64,000 nucleotides of DNA, taken from NCBI GenBank assembly GCA_014075275.1, contig CP046179.1, positions 1,931,932 to 1,995,931 on the forward strand, in the 5' to 3' direction. The stretch is from Boseongicola sp. (GTDB lineage Bacteria > Pseudomonadota > Alphaproteobacteria > Rhodobacterales > Rhodobacteraceae). Shown piece by piece: positions 24,094 through 61,491 of this stretch; within the stretch, counting starts at the first letter, position 1, and every line of letters begins with the position of its first letter. Position numbers and translations under genes: made by a program. Below the pieces are notes generated by a model. The model saw only the letters and a program-made list of their open reading frames with translations, searched no databases and was not told where the DNA came from.

Positions 24094-24831
24094 ATGGGCG
24101 AGCGGAAAGTCTTAAAGATCAGCGGCGGGGATGTGCGGGACTTCTTGCAAAACCTTGTGACCAATGATGTGGCGCGGGTGGATCGGGGTCTGGTCTGGAC
24201 GGCGCTACTGACGCCGCAAGGGAAGTATCTGGCCGATTTCTTTCTTTTGGCTGAAGGCGACAGCATTTTGCTGGATGTGGGCGCCGCGCTGGCCCCGGCG
24301 CTGGTTCAGCGGTTGTCGATGTATAAGCTGCGGGCTGATGTGACCATTGAAGAGACCGACATTGTACCTTCGCGCGGGTTGGGAGATGGCGCGGAAGGCG
24401 CGTTTGCAGACCCTCGGCATGCGTCGTTGGGATGGCGGGCCTATGATGGGCGTTCAGGTGACGATGGCAATTGGACCGCATTGCGCGTTGCGGCTTTGGT
24501 GCCGGAAACCGGCATTGAGTTGCTACCGAACGAGAGCTACCCGCTGGAAGTCGGTTTCGAACGTCTGAATGGCGTTGATTTCAAGAAGGGGTGCTATGTA
24601 GGTCAGGAAGTGACCGCCCGCATGAAGCATAAAACGGAACTGAAAAAGGGTTTGATGTCTGTCGCAGTTGACGGAGTGGCACCCGTAGGCACCGAAATAG
24701 TCAACGAAGCCGGGAAAGTTGCGGGCACGTTATTCAGTCAGGCTGACGGGCGCGGCATCGCATATTTGCGCAAAGATCGCGCCACCGGAACACTAAGAGC
24801 CGGTGACGCCGTTGTTGAGGTGCGTGATTAA
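24094..24831 (+). CDS. ygfZ: YgfZ/GcvT-like folate-binding protein
   Basis: The 245-residue protein has the YgfZ signature KGCYVGQEVTARMKHK with its conserved cysteine, preceded by a GcvT-like fold (ISGGDVRDFLQNLVTNDV, LLTPQGKYLADFFL). YgfZ binds tetrahydrofolate and helps assemble or repair iron-sulfur clusters in the cytosol. An AGGAGG site lies eight bases before ATG 24094, so longer starts are rejected. It converges on efp with only three bases between stop codons. Confidence 0.9.
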   Translation: MGERKVLKISGGDVRDFLQNLVTNDVARVDRGLVWTALLTPQGKYLADFFLLAEGDSILLDVGAALAPALVQRLSMYKLRADVTIEETDIVPSRGLGDGAEGAFADPRHASLGWRAYDGRSGDDGNWTALRVAALVPETGIELLPNESYPLEVGFERLNGVDFKKGCYVGQEVTARMKHKTELKKGLMSVAVDGVAPVGTEIVNEAGKVAGTLFSQADGRGIAYLRKDRATGTLRAGDAVVEVRD

Positions 24832-24834
24832 GCG

Positions 24835-36283: not shown

Positions 36284-36620
36284 ATTTGGGAAATGGGATT
36301 TGAATTGCCGGTCGCGTCGACTGGCGTTTCGAACGGACCATCCGGGTGGCCGTAGCTTAATCTCGTAAATCTCCAGATCAGCGCATACAGGCACGACTAG
36401 TGTGAAATGCCGATCAATCCGATTCGAAACGGAAATTGCCGAACTTGTTGCAAGCGTTTGCATCCTGTTCGTACGGAAAAAGTTTGCCTTTTCAGCCATT
36501 AAATTCGCTGGATACTGCCCAATCGGCAGCGCCGCGCTATGGACAATCGCGCGAAAAAAATATAGAATGAAGCATATTAAACATTGAATTTAAAAGATAA
36601 TTTTCGGAAGGACGACTGAG
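36284..36620. other. Gene-free stretch after pyc
   Basis: I see no open frame that looks protein-coding here. The last 100 bases are AT-rich (for example TATTAAACATTGAATTTAAAAG around 36570-36600, shown here only in part), which would suit a promoter for the short unit that follows. No confident -35/-10 pair was identified. Confidence 0.4.
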
Positions 36621-36750
36621 ATGGCACTGATTGCGATCGCTCATTCGTTCGGAAATGTCCCAGCATGACCCCCCGCAGGGGTTTAGAAACCGGAAGAAGA
36701 AACACACCGGAAATCCAACGATTAGAAGGCATACCCTGCAACCGCCTGCG

Positions 36751-36879
36751 ATGGGGACACGACGCAGAGATCATTTATTGAGTGCCGCATTATTTTTGAT
36801 GGTACTTCCAATGCTGATATACTTGATCTGTCGTGATTTTATCTACGCCTTAGTGTTTGGGCATCGGACGAAAAAATGA
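36751..36879 (+). CDS. Candidate 42-residue membrane protein in a short transcription unit
   Basis: The frame MGTRRRDHLL continues as one hydrophobic span (SAALFLMVLPMLIYLICRDFIYALVF) and a basic tail (GHRTKK). The same frame is open from ATG 36655. Upstream, AAGGACGA (36608-36615) sits six bases before ATG 36621, which opens a 15-codon leader-like ORF (MALIAIAHSFGNVPA) whose stop overlaps an ATG at 36665 (38 codons). The unit ends in a strong terminator. Which of these frames is translated is unclear, and a small RNA is possible. Confidence 0.3.
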   Translation: MGTRRRDHLLSAALFLMVLPMLIYLICRDFIYALVFGHRTKK

Positions 36880-36892
36880 AATGAAAAAAATC

Positions 36893-36930
36893 TCAGCGGC
36901 AGATGATAGCATCTGCCGCTGAATTGTTTT
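36893..36930. terminator. Strong intrinsic terminator, probably bidirectional
   Basis: A perfect 13-bp stem (36893-36905 with 36910-36922, loop ATAG, arm CAGCGGCAGATG) is followed by AATTGTTTTT on the plus strand and by a run of seven T on the minus strand. It would end the short plus-strand unit and the minus-strand methyltransferase gene. Confidence 0.85.
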
Positions 36931-37011
36931 TGGGGGGCGTTGTGAATTGCAGAATGTTTGGAGCGTGGGACAAACCAGTCGTTCATACTGACCTTGCAAC
37001 CGCGATATCCC

Positions 37012-55940: not shown

Positions 55941-55981
55941 AACAGTGATCTTTGCGAAGAGGTCGCGGACGGCGGATAACT

Positions 55982-56632
55982 GTGAATAGTCTCAGGTCCT
56001 ATTTTTCGGCAATACATAATAGCCCGGTCATCCTTTGGTTGATCGGGCTTTATGCAACTATTGAATTGCTGCTTGTACTTGGTGGATTTGGCGTTTTCGG
56101 TGTGGCGCGATTTCGATCGCTGGCCTACGAATTTGGCGGTTTCTGGCCCGGAATCCTGGGTGAGTGGAAGGCTAACTACCCCTTTCAGTCATGGATGATG
56201 TTCCTGACCTATGGCTTTCTTCATAGTGGAATTGCGCATTTGGTCGTGAACATGATCACTTTGGGGTCACTTGGCCCTTATGTCATCGAACGCGTGGGAT
56301 CGTGGAAGTTCTTGATTGTTTACATCGTTTCGATCTTCGGAGGTGCGATTGGCTTTGCGTTGTTGAGTGACACTTTCCGACCCATGGTTGGCGCGTCCGG
56401 CGCGCTTTTTGGTTTGGCTGGGGCAATCCTGGCGTGGGAATATATCGACCGGTTTACCTTGCGTGAAAAGCTGACGCCCGTTCTGCGGACTGTCGTGATG
56501 TTGGTCGCGTTGAACATTGTTCTGTATTTCGCAATGAACCGCTTGTTGGCCTGGGAGGCGCATCTGGGCGGCTTTTTGGCCGGGTGGATTGCAGCAGTCC
56601 TGGTCGACCCCCGTGGCATGGAGACGGCATAA
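55982..56632 (+). CDS. Rhomboid-family intramembrane serine protease
   Basis: The protein (216 residues from GTG 55982) has about six membrane spans and the rhomboid catalytic residues: the serine motif in VGASGALFGLAG (S139), H194 in WEAHLGGFLAGW and the conserved HSGIAHLVVNM. It cleaves membrane proteins. A TTG-based start at 55952 is possible. Following the barrel gene by 41 bases, it may belong to the polysaccharide operon, for instance by processing a surface protein. Confidence 0.85.
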   Translation: MNSLRSYFSAIHNSPVILWLIGLYATIELLLVLGGFGVFGVARFRSLAYEFGGFWPGILGEWKANYPFQSWMMFLTYGFLHSGIAHLVVNMITLGSLGPYVIERVGSWKFLIVYIVSIFGGAIGFALLSDTFRPMVGASGALFGLAGAILAWEYIDRFTLREKLTPVLRTVVMLVALNIVLYFAMNRLLAWEAHLGGFLAGWIAAVLVDPRGMETA

Positions 56633-56641
56633 CAGAAGGCC

Positions 56642-57748
56642 TCAAGACGAGTTTGATATTCTTTGGCTGAGGTGCTTGATGGCGTGACGGACGTTTTCGC
56701 GTATCGGCCCCGGTCTTGCGGGATCGCGCAGGGTGGTAAACCAATGATCTGGCGGATTGCGCCCCGCTCGACGCCCCGGCCAATTGAGATTGCGTAGCAC
56801 CTCTTCAGCCTCTGGCGGAAGGCGTTCTGGAATTTCATAGTTGTTGAGAGTGGCCCAGACACCGGTCCAAAGGCGGCCGACGCTCCACGGGTTATAGCCA
56901 CCGCCACCAAGTACGAGCATGCGTGGCGCTGCATCCCGCAAGGCTTTTACTACTGACCAATGCGCATTATTTGACAGTTCCAGTCGCGACAGTGGGTCTT
57001 CCGTGACGGCATCGGCCCCGCATTGCAGGATGATCGCTTCGGGGCGGAAGTGCTGTAGGCAGGGTAAAATCAAAAGGTCGCGGATCAACGCGAATTCACT
57101 GTCATTGAACCTGCGAGACACTGGAATATTGAAAAGCTGCCCTGCCCCCTGATCATTGAGTGCCCCGGTAAATGGCCACCGATTTTCCTCGTGGATGGAA
57201 AATTGGAGAACATCCGGGTCATCGCGAAAAGCAAACTCTACGCCATCACAGTGGTGGGCGTCGATATCGATGTAAGCAATCCGTTGAATACCGTTTGCGC
57301 GCATTGAGAGGATTGCAAGCACAGGGTCGTTAAAATAGCAGAATCCATTGGCATGGTCCGGCATTCCGTGATGCGTGCCACCGGCGGGCGAAAAGATAAC
57401 TCCGCTGGCTTTGAGCATCTCACCCGCCAATATCGAAGCGCCGGCGGCCGTTGCCGGACGCCGATACATTTCAGGAAACACTGGGTTGGCGTGACTGCCA
57501 ATATTGTGTCGTTCACGGATTTCAGAACTGACTTTGCCTTCTTCTTCGGCGCGGATGACGGCGGCAATGTAATCGGGATCATGCTAGGCAGCCAATGCCT
57601 TTGGACGTGCGCGCGGGCTGCGGATCCATTCATCCGGGGCCAGCCACCCCATTGCTATCGAGAGATCCATAACGGTCGACACCCTGGGGATTGCCCGTGG
57701 GTGCGTGCTGCTATAGCTCGATGCGCGATAGATCTCGGAAGAGATCAT
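56642..57748 (-). pseudogene. Histone-deacetylase-family protein, interrupted by an in-frame TAG at codon 55
   Basis: From ATG 57748 the frame encodes 368 residues typical of acetoin-utilisation/HDAC proteins: YSSTHPRAIPRVSTVMDL, a stop at codon 55 (57586-57584), then HDPDYIAAVIRAEEEG, GGTHHGMPDHANGFCYFND, IDIDAHHCDGVEFAF and GGGGYNPW. The histidine and aspartate zinc ligands are all present. The sole defect is TAG after KALAA, where homologues tend to have an aromatic residue before HDP, possibly tryptophan (TGG). Truncated translation could restart at 57481, but that product lacks the first 89 residues. Such enzymes deacetylate small molecules or polyamines in bacteria. Confidence 0.82.
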
Positions 57749-57893
57749 CTGGGGTCTAGGGGCTTGGAACTTCAACAATTTATCAACATATTGTGGTGTA
57801 TTCGATTAAGATCACTTTGACACAAATACTTAAAGTGTTAGCGTGACTGCAAAAGAAGACAATTAATTGAGGACGGCAGGCCTCGTGGCTCCG

Positions 57894-58364
57894 ATGAGTT
57901 TGGCGAAGATCAAACAACAAGCGCTTAGACTTTCCGAACATGAAAAGCGGGACGTCAGAACGCAATTTGGTGCGCTGTGTTGGCGAAAGCATCGCAGTGA
58001 AGTACAGGTATTGCTTGTAACGTCGCGGCGATCGAAGCGTTGGATTGTGCCGAAAGGCTGGCCGGTGGACGGTGCTACCCCTGCTGAAGCGGCGATGACC
58101 GAGGCTTGGGAAGAGGCCGGGGTTAAGGGCAAAGTTAAGCCAATTTGCCTTGGGATATTTAGCTATACCAAAGACTTGAATGACGATGCTAATCTACCGT
58201 GCATTGTGGCGTTGTTCCCTGTTAAAGTGAAATCACTTGCCAGCAAATGGCCCGAGATGGATCAGCGCAAGCGCAAATGGTTTTCGCTGAAAGTAGCTTC
58301 GGGATTAGTGCAGGAACCTGAACTGTCAGCCATTCTGAAGTATTTCAATCCGAAGCTTTTCTAG
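57894..58364 (+). CDS. NUDIX hydrolase
   Basis: The 156-residue protein (ATG 57894) has a NUDIX box, GWPVDGATPAEAAMTEAWEEAGV, that keeps the catalytic EExG glutamates but has T where the canonical box has arginine. Its layout (QFGALCWRKHRSEVQVLLVTSR at the start) resembles the DIPP group acting on diphosphoinositol or dinucleotide polyphosphates. GTG 57885 and TTG 57867 are alternative starts in frame. Substrate unknown. Confidence 0.83.
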   Translation: MSLAKIKQQALRLSEHEKRDVRTQFGALCWRKHRSEVQVLLVTSRRSKRWIVPKGWPVDGATPAEAAMTEAWEEAGVKGKVKPICLGIFSYTKDLNDDANLPCIVALFPVKVKSLASKWPEMDQRKRKWFSLKVASGLVQEPELSAILKYFNPKLF

Positions 58365-58429: not shown

Positions 58430-60154
58430 ATGGAAAGCGTTGCCCCTTCTCTATCGCGCACGCGGCTTTGGCTGTTTTTGCCGATCTCGATTTTGGTCGG
58501 GGTTTTGGTCTATCTGACGCTTTCCAGCGTGTTTTTCCGCCAGGCGCAGGAGACAACCCCGGATCGGGCCGCGTTTTTGGCGCGCACAATAGATGATGCT
58601 TTGACGCGGCTGGACCACCTGCCATTCATTCTGGCAGGCGATACGCGGGCGATCGCAGCCATCGAAAGCGGTGACGGGGCGGTTATTAACGGGCATCTTG
58701 AAGAGGTGGCGGCGCGGTCGAATGCGGAAGTTGTCTATCTGATGGACGAAACCGGTTTAACGGTGGCGGCATCGAACCATGCGACGCCGGATACCTTTGT
58801 TGGGCAATCCTATACATTTCGACCCTATTTTCGCGACGCGATGGCGGGGCAGACAGGACGCTTCTTTGCGGTTGGCGTGACCACGGGGCGACCGGGGTAT
58901 TTCGTGTCGCATCCGGTGAGGACTGCGGGCGATCAGATTGTCGGTGTGGCTGTAGTGAAAATCGGGGTCGCCGCGCTGACAGAGGGTTGGGCCGACAGCG
59001 GCGGCCAGGTTTTGGTGTCCAACGCCGAAGGAATTGTGCTGGCGGCGACGACGCGGGATCATTTGTTTCGCACAATAGCGCCGCTGACGGTCGAACAGCG
59101 GTCAGTTTTGTCGGAGGATCGGCAGTTCGATGGTGCCCCGCTGTTGCCGTTGGATTGGCGAAATGGCGGAGACGGTAGGATAACGCTTGATGGTGTCAGC
59201 TATTTGCGGACGACCGCGATCATTCCCAGCGAAAGCTGGACAGTGCATTTGCTGTCGTCGGTGGCGGAACTGCGGATAAGGGCCGCGTTGTACTTGGCGT
59301 TGGTTGTCGGTTTGGTGTTGGTTGTCGCGGTTGTGGCGACCGTATTTCGCTCGATCCGGCTGGACAGGGCTTTGGCCGCGTCGAATGCTGATCGGGCGCG
59401 ATTGAGCGAGGAAGTCGATGAACGCTTGCGGGTGGAAGAGACGTTGCAGAAGGCGCAGGCCGAGTTGCAGCGGTCGTCGCGATTGGCAGCGTTGGGGCAA
59501 TTGTCGGCGTCGATCACGCACGAGCTTGGGCAACCGATCTCGGCGATGAAAAACTATCTTGCGGCTGAGGAAATTGCCAAGGGGGCGGAACCGGGTGGAT
59601 TGAACAGTGATTTGGGTAGTCTGGTGGCGCGGATGCAGAACATCACCAATCAATTGCGGTTCTTTGCAACGCCGACGCGCCAGCCCTTGCAACCGGTGGA
59701 TCTGGCGCAGGTGGTTGCGGGTGCAAACCGGCTGCTGGCGCATGATTTCGAAAGTGCGGAGTGCGAGGTGCGAGTGGATGTTTCGGAGTGTCTTGGCATC
59801 GTCTCGGGCGTTCAGCATCGTCTTGAACAGGTGGTGGTGAACCTGTTGCGCAATGCGCTTCATGCCACATCGGGGCAAGCGGATGCTGCTATTGAGATTA
59901 CGTTGAATGTGACCGGTGGGGACGTGTTTTTGACGGTGCAGGACAATGGGTCGGGCCTTGGCGGGCAAGACATTGGTGACATGACCGAACCCTTCGTGAC
60001 GACGAAGTCATCAGGGGAAGGCATGGGGCTGGGTCTGGCGATATCGGCGCAGATTGTGAAGGATCATGGCGGACATTTGCGGGCGAAGGACCGGACCGAA
60101 GGTGGCGCGGTGTTCACTCTGGTGTTGCCAGCGTTTCGGGCGGTGAGCGCATGA
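58430..60154 (+). CDS. dctB: DctB-type sensor histidine kinase
   Basis: The 574-residue protein has a membrane span near residues 12-32, a periplasmic double-CACHE-like domain to about 285 (EVVYLMDETGLTVAASNH, VGVAVVKIGVAALTEGW), a second span (286-305), a coiled coil, H364 in LGQLSASITHELGQPISAMK and an ATPase with DNGSGLGG and GEGMGLGLAIS. The layout is DctB, the C4-dicarboxylate sensor kinase. The stop overlaps the regulator's ATG. By position it senses the ligand of the downstream TRAP system. Confidence 0.86.
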   Translation: MESVAPSLSRTRLWLFLPISILVGVLVYLTLSSVFFRQAQETTPDRAAFLARTIDDALTRLDHLPFILAGDTRAIAAIESGDGAVINGHLEEVAARSNAEVVYLMDETGLTVAASNHATPDTFVGQSYTFRPYFRDAMAGQTGRFFAVGVTTGRPGYFVSHPVRTAGDQIVGVAVVKIGVAALTEGWADSGGQVLVSNAEGIVLAATTRDHLFRTIAPLTVEQRSVLSEDRQFDGAPLLPLDWRNGGDGRITLDGVSYLRTTAIIPSESWTVHLLSSVAELRIRAALYLALVVGLVLVVAVVATVFRSIRLDRALAASNADRARLSEEVDERLRVEETLQKAQAELQRSSRLAALGQLSASITHELGQPISAMKNYLAAEEIAKGAEPGGLNSDLGSLVARMQNITNQLRFFATPTRQPLQPVDLAQVVAGANRLLAHDFESAECEVRVDVSECLGIVSGVQHRLEQVVVNLLRNALHATSGQADAAIEITLNVTGGDVFLTVQDNGSGLGGQDIGDMTEPFVTTKSSGEGMGLGLAISAQIVKDHGGHLRAKDRTEGGAVFTLVLPAFRAVSA

Positions 60155-61491
60155 CGAGCAACCCGTTCCTTGTTTTTGTGATCGACGATGACCGGGAGAT
60201 GCGGCAATCGTTGGTGCATTTGTTGCAGCAGTCCGGGTTCCGGGTGCGGCCCTATTCGGATGCGACCCTGGCGTTGCGCGAATTGGATCATGGCCCAGAC
60301 GTGGTGTTGTCGGATGTGCGGATGCCGCGAATGACGGGTTTGGAGTTGTTGGGTGAGTTGGGCGAGTTGGATCACGCGCCGCCTTTGGTGTTGATTTCCG
60401 CCCATGGCGACATTCCGACGGCTGTGAAGGCAATGCAGGACGGAGCGTATTCGTTTCTTGAAAAGCCGTATGATCCCAGACGCTTAATCTCAATCCTGAC
60501 CCATGCGGCGGAAAACCAGCGGTTATTGGCGGCGACGCAAAGGATGGCGCGCGACTTGACGGCGCTTTCTGGGTTGGACCGGGTGTTAGTTGGCGATGCG
60601 CCTGCGATTACAGGCTTGCGCCAAGAGATACTGGATATTGCGGCGGCGGACGGCAGTGTTTTGATCAGTGGTGAGACGGGCACCGGGAAAGAGGTCGTGG
60701 CGCGGGCGTTGCATAATCTGGGTCCTGCGCGGGATCATCCGTTTGTTGCGGTGAATTGCGCGACGATTGCGCCGGAGCGGTTTGATGCGATGATCTTTGG
60801 CGCGGTCGATGGCGGACGTGGGTTGATCCGGTCCGCGCAGAGCGGGACGCTGTTTCTGGACGAGGTTTCGGCCTGCCCGGATGATGTTCAGGCGAAGCTG
60901 CTGCGGGTGATCGAGACCGGGGAGGTTCTGCCCATCGGGGCGGATCAAGTTGAGACGGTGGATGTGCGGGTCATTGCGGCCAGCAATGAAAACCTGGAAG
61001 ACCTGGTCGCGGCGGGGCGGTTTCGAAGCGACCTGTTTTACCGTCTGAGCGCGTTTATTCTTGCCCTGCCCCGTCTGGCGGATCGGGGCGAGGATGTGTT
61101 GCTGCTGTATGAGCATTTTCTGCGCCAGATGGCCGAGACCTATGAGATATCGCCGCCTGCCATGACGGCGGACGATACCGCTGCGCTGATGGCCCATGGT
61201 TGGCCCGGAAACGTGCGCGAGTTGCGCCATATTGCTGAACGCCGGGCTTTGGCACATCGGCGCGGGGTTGGGTCGGTGGCCGAGGCTTTGCGACCCTCCG
61301 AGAGTGCTGACGCTGTGCCCGCGACCTTGCGCGAGGCGGTGGCGACGTTCGAGAGATCACTCATCGGTAATGCCATCCGGGCCAATCAGGGGCGGATGGA
61401 TGCGGTGGCCGAGGCTTTGGGGATCGGGCGGCGGACGCTGAACGAGAAGATCGCGAAACTGGGTCTGGATAAGTCAGAATTCCTCGACTGA
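60151..61491 (+). CDS. dctD: DctD-type response regulator of the AAA+ class, without GAFTGA
   Basis: The 446-residue protein has a receiver (FVIDDDREMRQSLVHLL, D55 in VVLSDVRMPRMTG), an AAA+ domain with Walker A GETGTGKE (174-181), Walker B GTLFLDEV and arginine finger SDLFYRLS, and a C-terminal Fis-type HTH (MDAVAEALGIGRRTLNEKI). Between Walker A and B, where sigma-54 activators have GAFTGA, it reads FGAVDGGRG (216-224), so the sigma-54 contact loop is missing or shortened. It may act like Rhodobacter NtrC, which lacks GAFTGA and works without sigma-54. It overlaps dctB. Confidence 0.85.
   Translation: MTSNPFLVFVIDDDREMRQSLVHLLQQSGFRVRPYSDATLALRELDHGPDVVLSDVRMPRMTGLELLGELGELDHAPPLVLISAHGDIPTAVKAMQDGAYSFLEKPYDPRRLISILTHAAENQRLLAATQRMARDLTALSGLDRVLVGDAPAITGLRQEILDIAAADGSVLISGETGTGKEVVARALHNLGPARDHPFVAVNCATIAPERFDAMIFGAVDGGRGLIRSAQSGTLFLDEVSACPDDVQAKLLRVIETGEVLPIGADQVETVDVRVIAASNENLEDLVAAGRFRSDLFYRLSAFILALPRLADRGEDVLLLYEHFLRQMAETYEISPPAMTADDTAALMAHGWPGNVRELRHIAERRALAHRRGVGSVAEALRPSESADAVPATLREAVATFERSLIGNAIRANQGRMDAVAEALGIGRRTLNEKIAKLGLDKSEFLD

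Follow-up and report, generated by a model that had tools for sequence, protein, structure and literature searches.

Among proteins of known structure the best match to the gene described here is the HDLP of Aquifex aeolicus (PDB 1c3p/1c3r/1c3s), a deacetylase of the class I type, which was matched with an E value of 8.5e-64 by the part of the gene that follows its premature stop alone. The alignment spans nearly all of that part, zinc and catalytic residues included. Closer still are the orthologs of Boseongicola aestuarii (locus L035) and Kangsaoukella pontilimi (locus L034), both Rhodobacteraceae, which have 70-72% identity and the same length, and which likewise lie next to a NUDIX gene and a TAXI-TRAP transporter. 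The gene differs from HDLP in that its frame is broken by a TAG, Arg stands in place of the Leu in the conserved HPL motif (L18R) and G13 is a Ser. It differs from the L034 and L035 orthologs in that these are uninterrupted and are directly followed by thpR. Bacterial pseudogenes interrupted by a nonsense codon are of the same general kind, in which an accessory gene has likewise suffered a single nonsense change and is otherwise intact in sequence; from these the present HDAC gene does not differ in kind, being at an early stage. The following features of the window (the whole analysed stretch of 64,000 nucleotides) are referred to below.

56642..57748, minus strand: HDLP-like class I Hist_deacetyl (PF00850) gene with one in-frame TAG
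57584..57586, minus strand: premature TAG, codon 55 counted from ATG 57748
57653..57712, minus strand: codons 13-32, stretch with the private changes G13S, L18R and R31I in near-invariant columns
56642..57481, minus strand: ORF of 279 codons downstream of the stop, starting at a GTG; a gene caller would report its truncated product
55952..56632, plus strand: rhomboid-like membrane protein (named by eye), convergent neighbour
57867..58364, plus strand: NUDIX-like gene (named by eye), divergent neighbour
56630..56644: junction of the HDAC stop and the convergent rhomboid stop, the thpR site in the five nearest relatives

The sequence-only reading had described an HDAC-family gene intact but for one TAG, both sides of which belong to a single homologous protein with every zinc ligand kept. 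This description is borne out. The minus-strand frame from 57748 to 56642 consists of 367 sense codons, the internal TAG and a terminal TGA, without a second lesion. Read across the stop, it matched model positions 1-298 of PF00850 with an E value of 6e-68 (229.8 bits against a curated cut-off of 27.9), and without the part before the stop it still matched positions 41-298 (E 8.8e-64). Such a Hist_deacetyl match is far beyond chance, and the whole domain is present. Alignment with relatives at 65-72% identity was unbroken over the TAG. The zinc ligands (D163, H165 and D246) and the catalytic residues (H126, H127, D161, D168 and Y285) are all kept (8/8), at positions that are invariant across 115 orthologs. 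The gene, which is chromosomal and belongs to a Rhodobacteraceae-type bacterium, is thus predicted to specify a Zn-dependent deacetylase of the HDLP-like class I type. The assignment of ATG 57748 as its start is uncertain because the relatives begin upstream and in-frame TTGs are present at 57778 and 57775, one of which may be the start instead.

The residue at codon 55 was examined, as the sequence-only reading had proposed, in an alignment of orthologs that comprised 80 loci from genome contigs and about 35 from other genomes within the family or class. In the set of orthologs that was read first, at the DNA level, the codons were TGG, TTY, TAT or CAT and never a stop, the Trp codons being TGG. 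The corresponding residues were W in 79, F in 31, Y in 4 and H in 1 of the 115 orthologs. The in-frame stop therefore stands where the orthologs have a sense codon, as in a nonsense pseudogene, and intact full-length orthologs are found throughout the family. The nearest relatives (B. aestuarii at 72% identity, K. pontilimi and locus L040) have TGG at this position. This implies that a single G-to-A change, whether a mutation or a base error, suffices to give the TAG, which dates from after the split from relatives at about 72% identity. Ten family matches that had been flagged with an internal stop were inspected. Most of these had no stop in the matched frame or had it at the normal C-terminal end. 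The one true internal TAG was that of locus L176 (G412:C17:451967-453452), at codon 305 in window numbering, where another genome of the family has had this gene interrupted independently. A stop that is conserved among relatives was in this way ruled out.

Conservation was compared before and after the stop. After the stop, the gene matched 77 of the 77 columns with a conservation of 95% or more, a set in which the average for the other orthologs is about one mismatch. In the part before the stop, 4 of 19 such columns differed (G3S, G13S, L18R and R31I). The first change is common to L035 and L040, while the other three occur in no other ortholog (n=115); at position 18, in the HPL motif, 115/115 have Leu. 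These private changes hint at a relaxed constraint on this part of the gene, and they may be older than the stop. That this part decays faster was nevertheless not supported by branch lengths, despite the three private changes: on a fixed tree the terminal branch had an ordinary length before as well as after the stop (N/C ratio 0.93, rank 42 of 92). An open frame alone is weak evidence of youth because about 32 random substitutions are expected before a second stop arises; the 77 conserved positions are the stronger evidence. Together with the 8 retained catalytic and zinc positions they indicate that the stop event is young.

The divergent NUDIX-like gene and the TAXI-TRAP transporter are common to the window and to the loci L034, L035, L036 and L040, and both are also present in L039, which lies on a short contig. 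The same NUDIX arrangement in the nearest relatives shows that the HDAC gene has kept its ancestral position. Downstream, thpR (RNA 2',3'-cyclic phosphodiesterase, TIGR02258) directly follows the HDAC gene in L034, L035, L036, L039 and L040, overlapping or abutting its end; the overlap in L036 is TGATG, which holds both the stop of the HDAC gene and the start of thpR. In that locus the convergent rhomboid-like gene comes next after thpR, and in L034, L035 and L040 a NeuB/KdtA/NeuA-like block lies between the two. In the window the HDAC stop lies 9 bases from the rhomboid stop. No thpR was found anywhere in the genome, by a search that as a control found thpR in 11 of 14 genomes. We infer that thpR was lost in the source lineage. 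Its absence is not proof of a lost HDAC function because most other orthologs also have no adjoining thpR, but it does point to relaxed constraint.

Some further observations were made on the surroundings. The block that separates thpR from the rhomboid gene (NeuB-like, KdtA-like and CMP-sugar cytidylyltransferase-like) occupies 5744-8830 in L034 and 5636-8767 in L035. It is absent from the rhomboid site of the window, and the genome has one NeuB-family gene (G000:C1:2043050-2043766). On the other side, a sensor kinase paired with a response regulator (by eye DctB/DctD-like) separates the NUDIX gene from the TAXI-TRAP transporter at 58430-61491; in L034, L035 and L040 NUDIX gene and transporter are adjacent. 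Elsewhere in the window, two gaps at 36284-37011 (728 bases) and 24267-24834 (568 bases) contain no ORF of 90 aa and no Rfam match; short genes, regulatory DNA or further decayed genes may lie in them.

An HDAC ortholog was found in 182 of 394 family genomes (E 1e-60) and not found in the other 212, and the same genome contains two more HDAC-family genes, both intact, at 30-37% identity. In combination with the independent TAG of L176 this makes loss of the HDAC gene unremarkable. We consider it probable that a recent nonsense mutation has turned the gene into an incipient pseudogene. A single nonsense change at codon 55, from TGG to TAG, would have occurred recently relative to the divergence from known relatives. 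Translation would then end after about 54-64 residues and an active enzyme would presumably not be made. Such a loss would be tolerated, the gene being dispensable and the locus being also without thpR.

A less likely explanation, though the best of the others, is an error of base calling or assembly, in which case the real gene would have a sense codon at 57584-57586 and would specify an ordinary full-length deacetylase. It would account for a single-base difference that was seen in one assembly of one strain, and for an active site and 77 near-invariant positions after the stop that are fully conserved. The whole-genome copy (G000:C1) has the same TAG; it comes from the same assembly and is therefore not independent. 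Against an error speaks that the genome is in one contig with a completeness of 99.71 and a contamination of 0, and the private changes that precede the stop at conserved positions are a hint that the relaxation is real. A methylation-linked error or hotspot at CCWGG was also considered, but no C5-methyltransferase (PF00145) was found in the genome; a Dcm-type hotspot (CCTGG to CCTAG) as the cause of the TAG was rejected for this reason. We infer that the DNA at the TAG is correct.

It is improbable that the UAG is tolerated in the sense that near-cognate readthrough (e.g. by Tyr) or internal initiation yields enough deacetylase to keep the gene under selection, with the stop acting as a low-output valve. 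Slightly more doubtful is its narrower form, in which low-level near-cognate readthrough with Tyr, Gln or Lys gives some full-length enzyme, enough for selection to keep. In Escherichia coli reporters these are the residues inserted at UAG on readthrough (PMC11126739), and Tyr occurs naturally at codon 55 in 4 of the 115 orthologs. A leaky, working protein is therefore conceivable, though unsupported, and both halves of the gene are conserved. However, in the same reporters UAG was less leaky than UGA (PMC11126739), none of the 115 orthologs has a stop at codon 55, release factor RF1 is intact (prfA above cut-off, a 365-aa frame without a stop) and a suppressor tRNA was not found in the genome. 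None of the 38 tRNAs found by a search that was not exhaustive had a CTA anticodon, and the 8 pattern matches for such a tRNA in the genome were none of them a tRNA; as a positive control, the same kind of pattern found a tRNA-Tyr that the Rfam search had missed. A separate locus, L186 (G000:C1:1372739-1372784), resembles the 3' half of tRNA-Thr(CGT), where ARAGORN calls no tRNA, and is possibly the remnant of an integration site. The literature on readthrough of bacterial pseudogenes yielded no direct match. The suggestion that the stop is either recent or read through hence stands in its first part, given intact orthologs with a sense codon in every case and both sides about as conserved as in relatives, while readthrough found no support.

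About as doubtful is that initiation at GTG 57481 or ATG 57469, the first in-frame start and the first ATG after the TAG, gives a functional N-terminally shortened deacetylase, the upstream part being a decaying leader. The contrast between 0/77 departures after and 4/19 before the stop, three of them private, would fit such a leader. Yet the overall N-terminal branch length is ordinary, a Shine-Dalgarno-like site is missing at both starts, and either product would be without the first quarter of the domain, about 90 residues that are present in all relatives and in HDLP. Amber suppression or reassignment was rejected and programmed readthrough is unsupported, there being no ortholog with a stop at this codon (0/115), no dedicated CTA-anticodon tRNA found by the non-exhaustive search and an RF1 that is neither absent nor altered.

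The sequence-only reading had also foreseen a shortened annotation from an ATG at 57481. A 279-aa ORF does begin there, but its start is GTG and no ribosome-binding site is recognisable. A gene caller would thus report a deacetylase of 279 aa that misses the first quarter of the domain and would probably not fold. The locus is also one at which, in a single lineage, two neighbouring genes are affected, thpR being missing and the HDAC gene interrupted.
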